Shown here: positions 11,409 to 17,294 of the stretch, piece after piece
How the letters are laid out: every line of letters begins with the position of its first letter
Numbering within the stretch: the first letter of the stretch is position 1
Source: Arachnia propionica
GTDB lineage: Bacteria > Actinomycetota > Actinomycetes > Propionibacteriales > Propionibacteriaceae
Assembly: GCF_003859805.1 (NCBI RefSeq)
Contig: NZ_RQZG01000008.1
Span: forward strand, 124,001-188,000
DNA: 64,000 nucleotides
Reading direction: 5' to 3'
Made by a program: the position numbers and the translations under genes
The notes under the pieces: model-generated
What the model saw: only the letters and a program-made list of their open reading frames with translations
What the model was told of the DNA's origin: nothing
Databases searched by the model: none

Positions 11409-12642
11409 ATGACCACCCCCCTTCCCGTCACTGTCGCTGAGGCCTTCGACGTCCTGGCCGACACCGAGGCGCAGTTGCGTGCGGTGGAGGTGGCGCAGGT
11501 GATCGCGATCGCCCGGGTGGTGGAGCTGTACCGGGTGGACCAGGCAGCAGTGTTCGAGGCATTCGAGGAATGCCTGTCGGCTCATGTGGATGGCTCGTCC
11601 GGTGTGGGGGAGTTCCTCGCCCTCGAGGTCGGAGCGATCCTCGGCATCAGCCCCAGGGCGGCGATCTGCCGGATCGCCGATGTGGTCACCGTCAGGGACC
11701 GGTTCCCGTCGTCGTGGGATGCCTTCCTGGCCGGTGAGGTGCGGTGGTGGCAGCTCACCGAGGCGATCCACCACCCCGGTGTCTCGGGATTGGGTGCCGA
11801 GGGATCCCGCTGGTTGGACCACCAGCTCAGCATCGCGTTGCGCACGTCGTCGTGGCAGCAGGTCCGCAGACACCTTCCCCGATGGGGTGGTGCAGGCCGA
11901 CCCGGCTGCGGCTGCAGAACGGGAGGCCGTGGCGCGGGAGGATCGGCACGTGTGGGTCAGCGGGATCCAGGATGGCCACTGTGCCCTGTCGGGTCGTCTG
12001 GCCGCGCGCGATGCCGTGGATCTGGACCACGCATTGACCAGTGTGGCCGGGACCATCCCCGAGGAGGCGGGAACCTTGAGGCAGCGACGCGCCGCCGCGT
12101 TGGGTGTCCTCGCGCGGCAGGCCGCCGGGCAGGACACCCTGCCCGCTGCCACGGTGATCGTCCACATCGATGCTGATGATCCGGTGCTGACCGGTGAGGG
12201 TGAGGCGTGTGGGGTCGCGGAGATCGAGCACTGGGGTGCGGTGCTGAGCAACCGGTTGCCGGAGTTCCTGAAGGACACGCGGGTGACGGTGCGTCCGGTG
12301 ATCGACCCGTGGCGGCTCCCACCGCAGGATGGGCACGACCCGTCGGTGGCGTTGTGGACGGCGGTGACCGCACTGATGCCCACCGACATGTTCCCCTACG
12401 CGGCCAGCACGTCCCGGCGCTGCGACATCGACCACACCATTCCCCACGACGACCACACCCCGGGCCTGACCCGGTGGGGCAACCTCGCGCCGTTGTCACG
12501 CAGGACGCACCTGGGCAAGACCTTCGGTGGCTGGTGGATGAAACGTCAGCGTCCCTCGAGGGCAAGAGAGGGTAACTGGCCGATGATCCGGTTGGTCTCC
12601 AGGGAGAGGGTCACCACCCGTTTCAGCAGGTCGATGACGTAG
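11409..12642 (+). pseudogene. DUF222 (13E12-type) HNH endonuclease, frameshifted and 3'-truncated
   Basis: Member of the DUF222/HNH family common in actinobacteria. The first frame (from ATG 11409) encodes the DUF222 helical part to about 11870. Homology then resumes one frame over (VVQADPAAAAERE onward) and runs through the HNH nuclease motif, CDIDHTIPHDDH near 12420-12450 and NLAPLSRRTHLGKTFGGWW ending near 12545. One extra base or two missing bases between about 11865 and 11895 explain the shift. The family's usual C-terminal ~30 residues after KTFGGW are absent: the remaining frame to 12642 only reads the antisense of the neighbouring restriction gene. Probably dead. Confidence 0.8.
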
Positions 12643-15600
12643 CGCGGGTTGCGCTGTTCCCGGCACCAGTCGTTGGGGTCGTTGACGATGCCCGAGGACT
12701 TGTCGGTCTTCACCACGTAACGATCCATCACCCACTCCAGCGCCGAGCGACTGCCCAGTTGGTAGGCGAAGACCTCCCCAGGGATGCCGCCCAGCCTGAC
12801 ATGGGAGTTGTAGATGAGCGTGCTCCGGTCAGTCTTCGAGGCAAATTTCATCTTCGTCGTCGTCACGGCGAACAGCTCGTAGGCATCCAGCCCGGCCCGG
12901 GCGGAGATCGTCTCCTCCAGCGGGTACGGGTCCACCTCCTCGTAGCCGATGTGGAGCTCCAGCAGCTCCTGCCCGGTTGCGGCGAAGGCGTGAAAGTCGT
13001 CCCCGCTGGCGGCGAGCGGGATGCGGGGCAGCATCTTCCTCAGGTCGGCTGCGAAGCGTTCCCGGTACTGCGGCGAGTGCAGCACGGCGTAGACGTAAGC
13101 GAAGATGTCATCCTTGGTCACCGCGCCGAAGGCCTGCTGGAAGTGGGCCAGGGCCTCATCGGTGATGTTGTCGATGCGGCGGTACCCGCCCACCAGGTCG
13201 GCATCCAGGTTGAACAGCATCTCTGATTCCGCGCGCTTCGGTCCCGGCTCGTAGGTCCATCGCGGGAAGAACTGGGAAGTGATGACAAAGGTCGCGCAAT
13301 CCACCAGATCCTCTGCTGCCAGCACTGAGAAGTGAGCTTGGGCATGTGGGGAGATGACCTGGAACCCGATGTTGGGGACATCGGGGGCCGGGAAGATCGA
13401 GTGCATCCGGTAGACCATGTCGTTCATGGAGCGGCTGAAGTAGCTGTGCTGTTTCGTGAAGGGGCGATAGCTGGACAGCCGCAGAGCGGCGGGGTCAAAG
13501 CTGTGGCGCACACCACGCTGATGATCCTTGAGCAGGCCTCGGCTCCAGGAGATCCTTGACGGATCGGAATCAGCCTCCGCGCCGAGACAGGCGTTGTAGG
13601 CCGCGATCATCCGGGACATGTTGTCCTCGAGTCCGGGCTGGCTGAAGTTGTAGCACCATGTGTCGCGGCTTGTCGCGAGTCCTCGGGAATGGAGCTTGAA
13701 GATGGCTGGTTCTCCGCTCTTCGAGCCGATCGGCATGAAGGAACTGAACAGGTCGTCGCGCTGGTTGAGCCAGTCGCCGTGCGCATTCGGGGTGATCTGT
13801 TCCCAGCCCTCGTCGTCCAGGGTGGCCTCGGCCAGGAGCGCCAGTTTCTCCTCCCGGGAGAGGAAGTCGCCGATGTCGCGGTAGTGAATGGTCGGGGGGG
13901 GGGGGGGGGGGGGGGGGTTTGCCGTTTTCTTCACACCGAGCACGATGGCGACGGTGTTGCGACTGCCGGAACCGAAGATCTTTCCGCCCTCCTTGCGGGA
14001 CAGCTCACCAGCGGTGCGCTGGTTGCCCCGCAGGTTGAACACCCACAGCTCGGAGAACTCCTCGGCCAGGGACAGCCGCATCCCGTCGGCGGTGTTGCCG
14101 TCCAGCCAGCCGCCGTTGGAGACGAAGGCCATGATGCCGCGCTCGGCCAGCCGGTCGGTGGCCCATCGGTAGGCCCGGATGTAGGAGTCGTAGAGGTTGT
14201 TCTTGTTCGTGGCGCTCGAGCGCGCCGCATAGGTGTCGCGAATCCTGCCGTCCAGGCTCGGGTACCTGAGGTTGGCGTTGTTGTCGTTGGCGCTGCCCTG
14301 GCCCACCGAATAGGGTGGGTTGCCGACGATCACCTGGATCGGGGTCTGCAGCTGCCTGGTGATGCGCTCATTGTTGGCAGGCAGCAGCGAGGTGTCCGCG
14401 CGATCACCGGTCTCACTGATCTGGAAGGTGTCGGTGAGGGTGGCCCCGGGGAATGGGACATAGCTCTGCTCCCCGGTGATGGACTCGTAGGTGCTCTCGA
14501 TGTTCACGCAGGCGATGTAGTAGGCCAACAGCATCAGCTCGTTGCACCACAGCTCGTGCGCGGCATCCGTCGCCCCGTACTTGCGGGGCAGGTCCTCTGG
14601 CGCGATGATCCCCGATTCCAGCAGCCGCACGATGAAGGTCCCCGTCCCGGTGAACGGATCGAGGACCTGGACCCCCTCATCGCTGAGACCCTGCCCGAAG
14701 TGGCGACGGCTCAGTTCGTCGGCAGCACGCAGGATGAAGTCCACCACCTCGACGGGGGTGTAGACCACGCCCAAGGACTCGGCCTGCTTCGGGAAGGCGT
14801 TCTTGAAGAACTTCTCGTACAGGTCGTGGATCACGGTCTGCCTGCCAGCGGCATCGGTGACCGCTGCGGCCCGGGTCCGCACCGACCGGTAGAACCGCTC
14901 CAGGTGCTTGGTCTCCGCCTCCAGACCCTGCCCTTCCAGGACATCGAGCATGGCCTGCATCCCGATGCTCACCGGGTTCGACTGGGCGAAACCGGACCCG
15001 CCGAACAGCGCATCGAAGACCGGTGCTGTGATGAGGTGCTGGCTCAGCATCGAGACGGCGTCATCCCGGGTGATCGAGTCGTTGAGGTTGCCACGAAGAC
15101 CTGCGAGGAACTGCTCGAACCGAGCGGTGACCTCCTCATCCGCCTGAGCCAGCAACGCATTGATACGGGCCACCTGGGCGGCTGACATCTCGGCCACGTC
15201 GGCGGCCCACCGGTCCCAGTACTCCCGGGACCCGACGCGGCTCACGATCCGGGAGTAGATGGCGTCGCGCCACTGCTCCAGGGCGAACAGCGGGAGCTGA
15301 GCCGCCCCGGAGGCCGCCCCCGAGGTGTCGACGATCACAGTGCCGGAAGGGTCCTTCCCGCCGTTCAGTTCGATGGACTGGATCACCGACTCGAACCGGT
15401 CGTCATGGGCGCGCAGCGCGTTGAGCACCTCCCAGACCACCTTGAACCGTTTGTTGTCGCTCAAGGCCTGTTCCGGGGCCACCCCTGCAGGCACCGCGAC
15501 CGGCAGGATGATGTAGCCGAACTCCTTGCCGGGGGCCTTGCGCATCACCCGTCCGACGGACTGCACGACGTCCACGGCCGAGCTGCGAGGACTGAGGAAC

Positions 15601-17294
15601 ATCACCGCATCCAGGGCGGGAACATCCACCCCCTCGGACAGGCAGCGGGCATTGGTCAGGATGCGGCACTCACCATCGGGGACATCAGCCTTGAGCCAGC
15701 CCAGTTCCCTCGCGCGGACCAGCGCGTTCATGGTCCCATCGACGTGCCGGGCCTGGCAGCTCAGCAGACGTGCTTCTTCAGCCCCGGCGGTGGCGGTCAC
15801 CACGTCGTCGAAGACCCTCGCCACCTGCTGGCTGGAACGGATGTTCTCCAGGAAGGCGACGGCCCGTTTCATGGGCGTGGCGTCCGGCGGGAAGGAGGAG
15901 CTGGGATCACCGGTCGCGGAACGCTTCGCCAGCGAGTTCCAGCACCCCATGATCCGGGCCGCGTCATCGAGCGGGATCTCCAGTTCCTGCCCGGCCTGCA
16001 TCTGCTGCATGGGGGCGGCCATCTGCTCCTCGGAGACCACGAGCACCAACACCTTGTAATCGGTCAGCAGGTCCTGTTCCACGGCCTCACCGAAACCCAG
16101 CCGATGGAACACCGGGCCGAACCGGGTGTGGTCATCCATCGAGGTCAGCTCGGCGGAGTGGGCCTCGGCCCTGTCCTTGACGGCGTCGCTGAACAGGCGT
16201 GGGGTGGCGGTCATGTACAGGCGACGCCTGCCCTTCAGGTACTGGGGGTCATGAACCCGCACGAAGTCCGATTCCGTCGTGCCCGCCAACGTGACACCGG
16301 TTGTGCGGTGAGCCTCATCACACAGGATCAGGTCGAACTCAGGGGCACCCAGATCCTGGGCCTTGGAAACCACGGCAGCTGACTGGTACGTGGAGAAGGT
16401 CACCGTCAAACCGGCACCACGACGGCCAGCCGTCAGACGACGGTGCAGCTCGGTGGGGTCGGTGGTGGCGGGCAGTGGCAGGTCGTGCAGTGCGATGTCC
16501 TCCGCGGCACGGGAGGCCTTCGTGTCCGAGCACACCACCGTGGCGCGAAGATCGAGTTCAGCCTGGGCGGACCACTCCCTGAGGGTCTGGGCCACGAGTT
16601 GGATCGAAGGGGCCAGGAAGAGTACCCGCAGGCTGCCGCCCTCCGCCTCGGCCAGCTGCTCGGCCAGCTTCAGGGAGGTGAAGGTCTTGCCGGTGCCGCA
16701 GGCGCTGATCCACTGGCCCCGATCATGCTCGGCGAAGCCAGCGAGGATCTTCGTGATGGCCAGGTCCTGGTGAGGGCGGGTGCGGTAACGACGAGCAGGC
16801 CTGAGATCGACGGTGATTCGGGCTCGGTCGGCGAACACCCAGTCGATGGGAGAGGACTGCAGCTGTTCGAGCCCGATGCGAGTGACCGGGATCTGCTGGT
16901 CCGAGAGGGCTTCCTCGGCGTGCCTGGACCAGAGATCAGTGGTGGAGATGATGATCCGGTTGGAGAACCCCACCCCGTCCCAACGTTTCCCGGAGGCCGT
17001 GAAGAAGGAGTCGATGTCCTTCTTCTGCAGCACCTGAGCGCGGGAGTAGAACTTGCACTGGATGGCGGTCCACTCCCCGGTGGCACGGTGCTGCGCCACC
17101 AGATCGATACCGACATCGGCCGTCCCCGCCCGGTGGGCCCAGTCATTCCACCGGGAGACGTTCTCGTAGGTGTCACGGAGCAGGGGATCGTGTTCGAAGT
17201 AGCTCACCATGAGTTCTTCGAACCGGGTGCCCCGTTCACTGTTCGACGCTGCGTCGTCGAAGGCCTGGATCACATCGAGAACAGTTGTGGTCAC
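12546..17294 (-). CDS. Single-polypeptide Type ISP-like restriction-modification enzyme
   Basis: A 1,582-residue enzyme combining nuclease, motor and methyltransferase, like LlaGI/LlaBIII. Visible in order: Mrr-like PD-(D/E)xK nuclease (D64, Q79-C80-K81); superfamily 2 translocase with Walker A ACGTGKT at 198-204, DEAH at 326-329 and helicase C motifs SVGRVMRKAP; a coupler; gamma-type N6-adenine methyltransferase with SAM motif VLDPFTGTGTF near 875-886 and NPPY at 992-995; and a C-terminal ~430-residue target-recognition region. Residues 1127-1134 are eight prolines encoded by a 24-nt homopolymer between methyltransferase and recognition domain. Start is GTG 17294, 4 nt after GAGGAG. No separate S or M gene exists, as expected. 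Its 3' end replaces the end of the HNH gene. Confidence 0.9.
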   Translation of the reverse strand: MTTTVLDVIQAFDDAASNSERGTRFEELMVSYFEHDPLLRDTYENVSRWNDWAHRAGTADVGIDLVAQHRATGEWTAIQCKFYSRAQVLQKKDIDSFFTASGKRWDGVGFSNRIIISTTDLWSRHAEEALSDQQIPVTRIGLEQLQSSPIDWVFADRARITVDLRPARRYRTRPHQDLAITKILAGFAEHDRGQWISACGTGKTFTSLKLAEQLAEAEGGSLRVLFLAPSIQLVAQTLREWSAQAELDLRATVVCSDTKASRAAEDIALHDLPLPATTDPTELHRRLTAGRRGAGLTVTFSTYQSAAVVSKAQDLGAPEFDLILCDEAHRTTGVTLAGTTESDFVRVHDPQYLKGRRRLYMTATPRLFSDAVKDRAEAHSAELTSMDDHTRFGPVFHRLGFGEAVEQDLLTDYKVLVLVVSEEQMAAPMQQMQAGQELEIPLDDAARIMGCWNSLAKRSATGDPSSSFPPDATPMKRAVAFLENIRSSQQVARVFDDVVTATAGAEEARLLSCQARHVDGTMNALVRARELGWLKADVPDGECRILTNARCLSEGVDVPALDAVMFLSPRSSAVDVVQSVGRVMRKAPGKEFGYIILPVAVPAGVAPEQALSDNKRFKVVWEVLNALRAHDDRFESVIQSIELNGGKDPSGTVIVDTSGAASGAAQLPLFALEQWRDAIYSRIVSRVGSREYWDRWAADVAEMSAAQVARINALLAQADEEVTARFEQFLAGLRGNLNDSITRDDAVSMLSQHLITAPVFDALFGGSGFAQSNPVSIGMQAMLDVLEGQGLEAETKHLERFYRSVRTRAAAVTDAAGRQTVIHDLYEKFFKNAFPKQAESLGVVYTPVEVVDFILRAADELSRRHFGQGLSDEGVQVLDPFTGTGTFIVRLLESGIIAPEDLPRKYGATDAAHELWCNELMLLAYYIACVNIESTYESITGEQSYVPFPGATLTDTFQISETGDRADTSLLPANNERITRQLQTPIQVIVGNPPYSVGQGSANDNNANLRYPSLDGRIRDTYAARSSATNKNNLYDSYIRAYRWATDRLAERGIMAFVSNGGWLDGNTADGMRLSLAEEFSELWVFNLRGNQRTAGELSRKEGGKIFGSGSRNTVAIVLGVKKTANPPPPPPPPTIHYRDIGDFLSREEKLALLAEATLDDEGWEQITPNAHGDWLNQRDDLFSSFMPIGSKSGEPAIFKLHSRGLATSRDTWCYNFSQPGLEDNMSRMIAAYNACLGAEADSDPSRISWSRGLLKDHQRGVRHSFDPAALRLSSYRPFTKQHSYFSRSMNDMVYRMHSIFPAPDVPNIGFQVISPHAQAHFSVLAAEDLVDCATFVITSQFFPRWTYEPGPKRAESEMLFNLDADLVGGYRRIDNITDEALAHFQQAFGAVTKDDIFAYVYAVLHSPQYRERFAADLRKMLPRIPLAASGDDFHAFAATGQELLELHIGYEEVDPYPLEETISARAGLDAYELFAVTTTKMKFASKTDRSTLIYNSHVRLGGIPGEVFAYQLGSRSALEWVMDRYVVKTDKSSGIVNDPNDWCREQRNPRYVIDLLKRVVTLSLETNRIIGQLPSLALEGR
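13894..13917. repeat. 24-nt poly-G tract inside the restriction-modification gene
   Basis: Uninterrupted run of 24 G on the plus strand (C on the coding strand). At 24 the frame stays open; one C fewer leads to TGA at 13609-13607 and one more to TGA at 13572-13570, in each case removing the target-recognition region. Such tracts slip during replication. Confidence 0.9.

Follow-up and report, generated by a model that had tools for sequence, protein, structure and literature searches.

Can an enzyme that cuts, translocates on, marks and recognizes DNA with one polypeptide chain be turned on and off by slippage at a single homopolymer? This question is raised by a Type ISP restriction-modification gene of Arachnia propionica (assembly GCF_003859805.1, contig NZ_RQZG01000008.1, positions 124,001-188,000; this 64,000-nucleotide stretch is referred to as the window, and coordinates are those of the window). 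The gene contains 24 consecutive C on its coding strand. The tract is probably a slipped-strand phase-variation (contingency) locus in a single-chain Type ISP gene, at which cutting and methylation would be switched together.

In-silico changes in tract length truncate the enzyme

13894..13917, minus strand: 24-C homopolymer coding for prolines 1127-1134, in a loop at the end of the methyltransferase domain (sequence and structural model)
13607..13609, minus strand: TGA reached after the loss of one C, overlapping an in-frame ATG (ATGA) (in-silico length change)
13570..13572, minus strand: TGA reached after the gain of one C (in-silico length change)

On the coding (minus) strand, the 24 C run uninterrupted from 13917 to 13894, preceded by GGCAAA and followed by GACCATTC. 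Its first C closes codon 1126 (AAC, Asn); seven CCC codons and the first two bases of a CCG codon follow, which gives eight prolines (residues 1127-1134). The open reading frame (ORF) remains open for 448 codons downstream. When the length of the tract was changed in silico, the loss of one C or the gain of two led to the TGA at 13609-13607, 95 codons past the tract, and the gain of one C or the loss of two led to the TGA at 13572-13570, 107 codons past the tract. In both out-of-frame readings, nearly the whole target-recognition domain was lost. The gene thus has a long in-frame simple repeat and is truncated by a change of one repeat unit, two of the properties that mark homopolymer-driven phase-variable restriction-modification genes.

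These results agree with the first-pass annotation of this DNA on the coordinates and the stops. The 24 consecutive C at 13894..13917 were exact, the enzyme of 1,582 residues with NPPY at 992-995 was read as claimed from the ORF translation, and the stops at TGA 13609 (one C fewer) and TGA 13572 (one C more) were reproduced. The tract had been placed between the methyltransferase and the recognition region, and indeed lies in the loop that ends the former domain, 63 residues before the specificity domain PF18135, nearly all of which is gone in either shifted frame, as had been predicted.

The tract is an extreme exception in its genome

Expected run numbers were obtained from a first-order Markov model of the window, scaled to 3.4 Mb. 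The genome (G000) is a draft of 3,397,337 bases in 77 contigs, and the contig that bears the tract has 205,911 bases, with the tract far from either end, which rules out an artefact of a contig end; 24 is its length as assembled. Under the model, 9.5e-6 runs of at least 24 C/G are expected per 3.4 Mb. In the whole genome, ten C/G runs of at least 8 were observed versus 590 expected, and two of at least 11 (the 24-C tract and a 15-mer on another contig) versus 20 expected. The next longest C/G runs within the window were at most 7. The number of overlapping C/G 8-mers in the window (17 versus 15.8 expected) seems ordinary, because the single 24-C run supplies all 17. The genome avoids long C/G runs, the 24-C tract is an extreme exception to this avoidance, and a chance origin of the run is excluded.

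The enzyme has a Type ISP architecture

12546..17294, minus strand: Type ISP restriction-modification enzyme, 1582 residues, GTG start with GAGGAG upstream (Pfam, homology)
16836..17192, minus strand: Mrr-like nuclease domain PF13156, residues 35-153 (Pfam)
15537..16787, minus strand: superfamily 2 (SF2) ATPase/translocase, ResIII at residues 170-366 and Helicase_C at 512-586 (Pfam)
14847..15221, minus strand: ISP coupler domain PF22240, residues 692-816 (Pfam)
14301..14834, minus strand: N6-adenine methyltransferase, PF02384 match, residues 821-998, with NPPY (992-995) at 14310-14321 (Pfam, motif)
12627..13706, minus strand: Type ISP C-terminal specificity (target-recognition) domain PF18135, residues 1197-1556 (Pfam)

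Domains were assigned by Pfam matches over the family cut-offs; an additional Eco57I match lay below its cut-off. The chain carries nuclease, ATPase, coupler, methyltransferase and specificity domains in the order that defines Type ISP enzymes. The class is also defined by ATP-dependent translocation, cleavage between head-to-head asymmetric sites and N6-adenine methylation (m6A) of one strand, and the enzyme is assigned to it here from sequence and fold. The nearest solved relatives in both respects are LlaBIII and LlaGI (PDB 4XQK and 5FFJ): residues 18-1579 aligned to 4XQK in phmmer, and the fold agreement comes from the modelled residues 690-1582 only. The Type ISP identity proposed in the earlier annotation is therefore borne out by domain order, homology to 4XQK and fold.

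The motifs GIDLV (62-66), IQCK (78-81), GTGKT (200-204), DEAH (326-329) and NPPY (992-995) are all present. GIDLV and IQCK are presumably the Mrr-type D...QxK motif, and we take GTGKT, DEAH and NPPY to have their usual meanings as catalytic motifs of Type ISP enzymes. The PD-QXK motif is described in PMC3874165.

The adjoining DUF222/HNH-type gene on the plus strand (11409-12642) seems to be divided between two frames, in the ORFs 11409-12176 and 11584-12642. The DUF222 match lies in the second ORF only, and the C/G runs there are at most 7.

The proline loop and the recognition domain among homologues

In the predicted structure, the eight prolines are model residues 438-445 and form a coil between the strands 426-434 and 446-451. 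LlaBIII and LlaGI, in contrast, have a shorter, proline-free stretch at this site in the alignments. The loop was compared with those of 93 other homologues in which it is covered (102 minus 9 duplicates). In the same alignment columns, the enzyme of the window has 14 residues, and the homologues have 10 (68 of 93), 9 (11), 12 (8), 11 (4), 7 (1) or 42 (1). The alignment indicates that the tract is a derived in-frame expansion, in which about four codons were added, confined to this lineage among those sampled. An alignment of orthologues had been proposed in the first-pass annotation as a check for a tract that is conserved but variable in length; conservation is ruled out, since the tract was seen at none of the 93 loci and is a local feature.

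C/G runs of at least 8 were absent from 10 further full-length homologues, the whole loci of which were scanned, and from the surroundings of the specificity domain in 29 further Actinomycetota loci, some of them contig fragments. Among the loci L009-L087, L088-L117 and L169, the only other such runs in the matched gene were a G9 in a genome of the same genus (G022), where the frame is broken, and a G8 in Jannaschia formosa (L064), where the frame is open. The exact pattern of the flanks had no match in viral contigs; the protein had one relative there, which lacks the tract. Seven proteins encoded next to the gene in the window were also sought in the flanks (1.5-3 kb) of 11 loci, 9 of them distinct, and none had a match.

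For the part after the tract, the enzyme of the window is 56-59% identical to five close relatives, which are 58-69% identical among themselves. The gene of the window is thus at the low end there, and all compared pairs diverge more in this part than elsewhere. The ratio of nonsynonymous to synonymous substitution rates (dN/dS) between the gene of the window and the same five relatives is 0.28-0.37 after the tract versus 0.17-0.31 before it. A decay of the recognition domain behind the tract was considered and rejected, since neither identity nor dN/dS gave a sign particular to the gene of the window. For two other Type ISP genes (L091 and L092), the identity is 96% in the first 690 residues, 93% in the coupler and methyltransferase, and 69% after the tract position, suggesting that their recognition domains were exchanged or diversified. 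Separately, three Type ISP genes are broken by inserts of about 1.3-1.9 kb. The inserts of L082 and G120:C1 fall close to where the recognition domain begins, and that of G764:C19 falls within the methyltransferase.

C/G runs elsewhere in the genus

C/G runs of at least 11 were surveyed with places listed from 22 of the 39 genomes; 30 places became loci, two of them in the genome of the window, and 20 wider regions were read. The same-genus comparison comprised G022 and ten other genomes (1 to about 10 contigs), the genus being taken from kinship labels. No other strains of the species turned up among the genomes searched.

G022 (one contig, 3.2 Mb) contains nine C/G runs of at least 8, three of which bear on adenine methylases. 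First, its Type ISP orthologue carries the G9 near residue 219, and the frame that encodes residues 3-222 on one side of it differs from that of residues 215-1579 on the other. That a Type ISP gene is split exactly at another C/G run adds weight to the interpretation as a switch. Second, a C11 coincides with an apparent split of a DrmMI/Type IIG-like adenine methylase (L184 8553-13583). The evidence for this split is codon composition together with weak matches to methylases in the ORF that follows. Another downstream ORF also fits the Type IIG model, and the gene may be broken more than once. Its neighbours are DruE-like and DpdE-like helicases, an AAA protein and McrBC-type genes; since they match DpdE, DruE-like and McrBC models, membership in DISARM is not claimed. 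Third, a C10 lies in frame in an HmaB/DUF1156 adenine methylase (L182 1620-4007), directly before an ILDPFAGGG motif.

In the ten other genomes, 21 runs of at least 9 C/G were listed. Nine ORFs at seven of these places were searched against families and included a UvrA/ABC-like protein (PADLOC mad3, 6e-33), a transglutaminase, two beta-lactamase-fold proteins, a helix-turn-helix protein, an alpha/beta hydrolase and two that matched no family; for the remaining 14 places, only ORFs and codon composition were considered. G022 resembles the genome of the window in the link between tracts and methylases, whereas the ten other genomes do not.

Several further tracts were observed. The second long tract in the genome of the window is a run of 15 G (L148 4295-4309; G000 contig C35:86294-86308). 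It coincides with the very start of a small ORF that has no Pfam family, or immediately precedes it, and could be a promoter or start-region switch. For G037, a 25-C run (L150, contig C60, around 4000) falls where a T2SSE (CpaF/TadA-like) ORF ends and shortly precedes a T2SSF (TadB-like) ORF; phase variation or a fusion in a pilus operon is possible. L149 (G026) and L163 (G011) have a 33-G run close to the beginning of a DUF6544 ORF, and 26 G and 32 C adjacent to each other. Many G/C blocks are clustered in G011 and G036, also at contig ends.

Proposed switch

Slipped-strand mispairing at replication would add C to, or remove C from, the 24-C run, which the first-pass annotation takes to be very unstable. 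In-frame lengths (24, and presumably others that differ by multiples of three) would give the full enzyme; the other multiples should be tolerated because the length of the proline loop varies among relatives, and lengths of 15, 18, 21, 24 or 27 C may all fit the loop. The full enzyme would methylate its own site, and would cut unmethylated DNA through ATP-driven translocation and collision. All other lengths would end the chain 95-107 codons later, with nearly the whole recognition domain lost. Such a chain, out of frame after residue 1133, would keep the nuclease, ATPase, coupler and methyltransferase core, and would neither methylate nor translocate.

One slip should disable restriction and modification together, because methylation and activation of the ATPase alike depend on the target being recognized through the methyltransferase and recognition domains. 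In the case of LlaBIII, the ATPase is reported to be stimulated on target recognition by these domains, and cleavage to result from two translocating enzymes that converge from head-to-head sites (PMC7049714). HP0669 of Helicobacter pylori, which consists of methyltransferase and specificity domains, is described as methylating alone (PMC3936762), suggesting that the recognition part is what matters.

A reverse slip would restore both activities. Switching from ON to OFF would be safe, whereas switching from OFF to ON would have to be survived until the chromosome is methylated. The benefit would be bet-hedging, in which phage defence is set against the cost in DNA uptake or self-restriction. 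The slippage rate, its reversibility, the tolerance of the loop, the loss of both activities and the benefit are what we infer for this locus.

Alternative explanations

Several observations weigh against the proposed switch. No variation in tract length was seen in the comparison, which included one genome of the species, and not one of the 93 other homologues has even two adjacent prolines at this loop. No restriction or methylase gene was found by family searches among the nine ORFs at seven of the 21 places in the ten other genomes, which leave a genus-wide rule of long tracts in defence genes unsupported. The gene splits in G022 may be homopolymer sequencing errors. For Cutibacterium (Propionibacterium) acnes, which belongs to the same family, 54 homopolymers (96% G/C) are reported to be polymorphic, to follow clades and, in the authors' view, to vary slowly (PMC4746626), suggesting that variation could be slow here as well.

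The most probable alternative is neutral expansion: the loop tolerates prolines, and the tract grew by slippage, unselected as a switch; its sole effect is that the enzyme is lost now and then, and either the tract or the gene will eventually disappear. The absence of the tract from all 93 homologues with the loop covered fits this explanation, as do the several Type ISP genes of the family that are broken by frameshifts, inserts or truncation, and the long tracts of the ten other genomes, most of which are located in unrelated genes or else at the margin of strong ORFs or beyond them. However, the genome strongly avoids even 8-mers (10 versus 590 expected), the ORF is open for 448 codons past the tract, and the tracts of G022 lie in three adenine-methylase defence genes. 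Neutral expansion is unlikely, although worth serious consideration.

It is improbable that the tract is real but shorter, longer or mixed, with 24 being the choice of the assembler. PCR-based short reads handle homopolymers of this length poorly and the genome is a 77-contig draft; concern over homopolymer accuracy led the P. acnes authors to check tracts in six genomes by Sanger sequencing (PMC4746626). The tract, however, lies deep inside a 206-kb contig and exactly in frame within a gene of 1,582 codons. A mixed tract would itself be a switch, so that this explanation bears more heavily on the number 24 than on the idea of a switch.

Slippage and stalling are known for long C runs and for proline codons in succession, and once one C is lost, the stop that ends the chain shares bases with an in-frame ATG (ATGA) that could let a fragment with the recognition domain re-initiate (a functional product, lacking the first 30 or so residues of that domain, is unlikely). 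Even so, an effect mainly on expression instead of a heritable switch, in which slippage of RNA polymerase, +1 ribosomal slipping on CCC codons or stalling on eight prolines gives full and truncated protein at any DNA length, has very little probability as the explanation, since DNA slippage is expected at such a run anyway and the two can coexist.

A broader form of the slipped-strand switch extends to the genus, and is put forward tentatively, as doubtful. Hypermutable C/G runs may have arisen repeatedly and independently in large defence genes for adenine methylases (two of Type ISP, with the run at different positions, one that is DrmMI/Type IIG-like and one HmaB), with whole restriction and defence activities being switched at random. 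The Type ISP gene would then be the first translocating single-chain member, and its proline loop a length-tolerant buffer in which every third length is ON.

Comparison with known phase-variable systems

Restriction enzymes that vary in phase have effects on phage resistance, DNA uptake and gene regulation. The examples met in this comparison belong to Type I, Type III, Type IIG or the Pgl system. If the tract is a switch, phase variation extends to a class with cutting, translocation, marking and recognition in one chain. The question would then arise of how a cell survives turning the enzyme ON with an unmethylated chromosome, because cutting takes no more than two enzymes that converge from unmethylated sites in head-to-head orientation.

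The first-pass annotation knew of no clear description of such a switch in this enzyme type. In agreement, no Type ISP homopolymer switch was found in the open-access literature searched, subscription papers and REBASE being outside that scope. The only concrete Type ISP example with frameshifts met there is the cluster of H. pylori: repeats are said not to be the cause of the two frameshifts in strain 26695, and the frameshift of J99-R3 is called authentic (PMC3936762).

The tract was compared with Cj0031 of Campylobacter jejuni, JHP1272 / HP1353-HP1354 of H. pylori and pglX of Streptomyces coelicolor, a phage growth limitation (Pgl) gene. To our knowledge, the Type IIG enzyme Cj0031 has no translocating ATPase, and pglX does not have nuclease and translocase in the same chain. 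Like the gene of the window, Cj0031 is described as having a poly-G tract inside a single chain, with DNA-contact domains conserved on both sides, a predicted joint loss of methylation and restriction, and a tract that is missing from other alleles; it differs in being a Type IIG enzyme with a run of 9 G from which ON and OFF colonies were isolated (PMC4889913). JHP1272 likewise has a C homopolymer that codes for consecutive prolines and turns the enzyme on or off, whereas it is a Type IIG, MmeI-like enzyme with a second tract that alters specificity (PMC3936762). For pglX, the likeness is a G tract in an actinobacterial adenine-methylase defence gene, with Pgl disappearing at 1e-2 to 1e-3 and returning at 1e-3 to 1e-4, and the difference is a multi-gene Pgl system with 8 G in the wild type (PMC4365076). 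A homopolymer switch is thus known in other restriction enzymes, and its occurrence in a Type ISP enzyme is probably what is new here.
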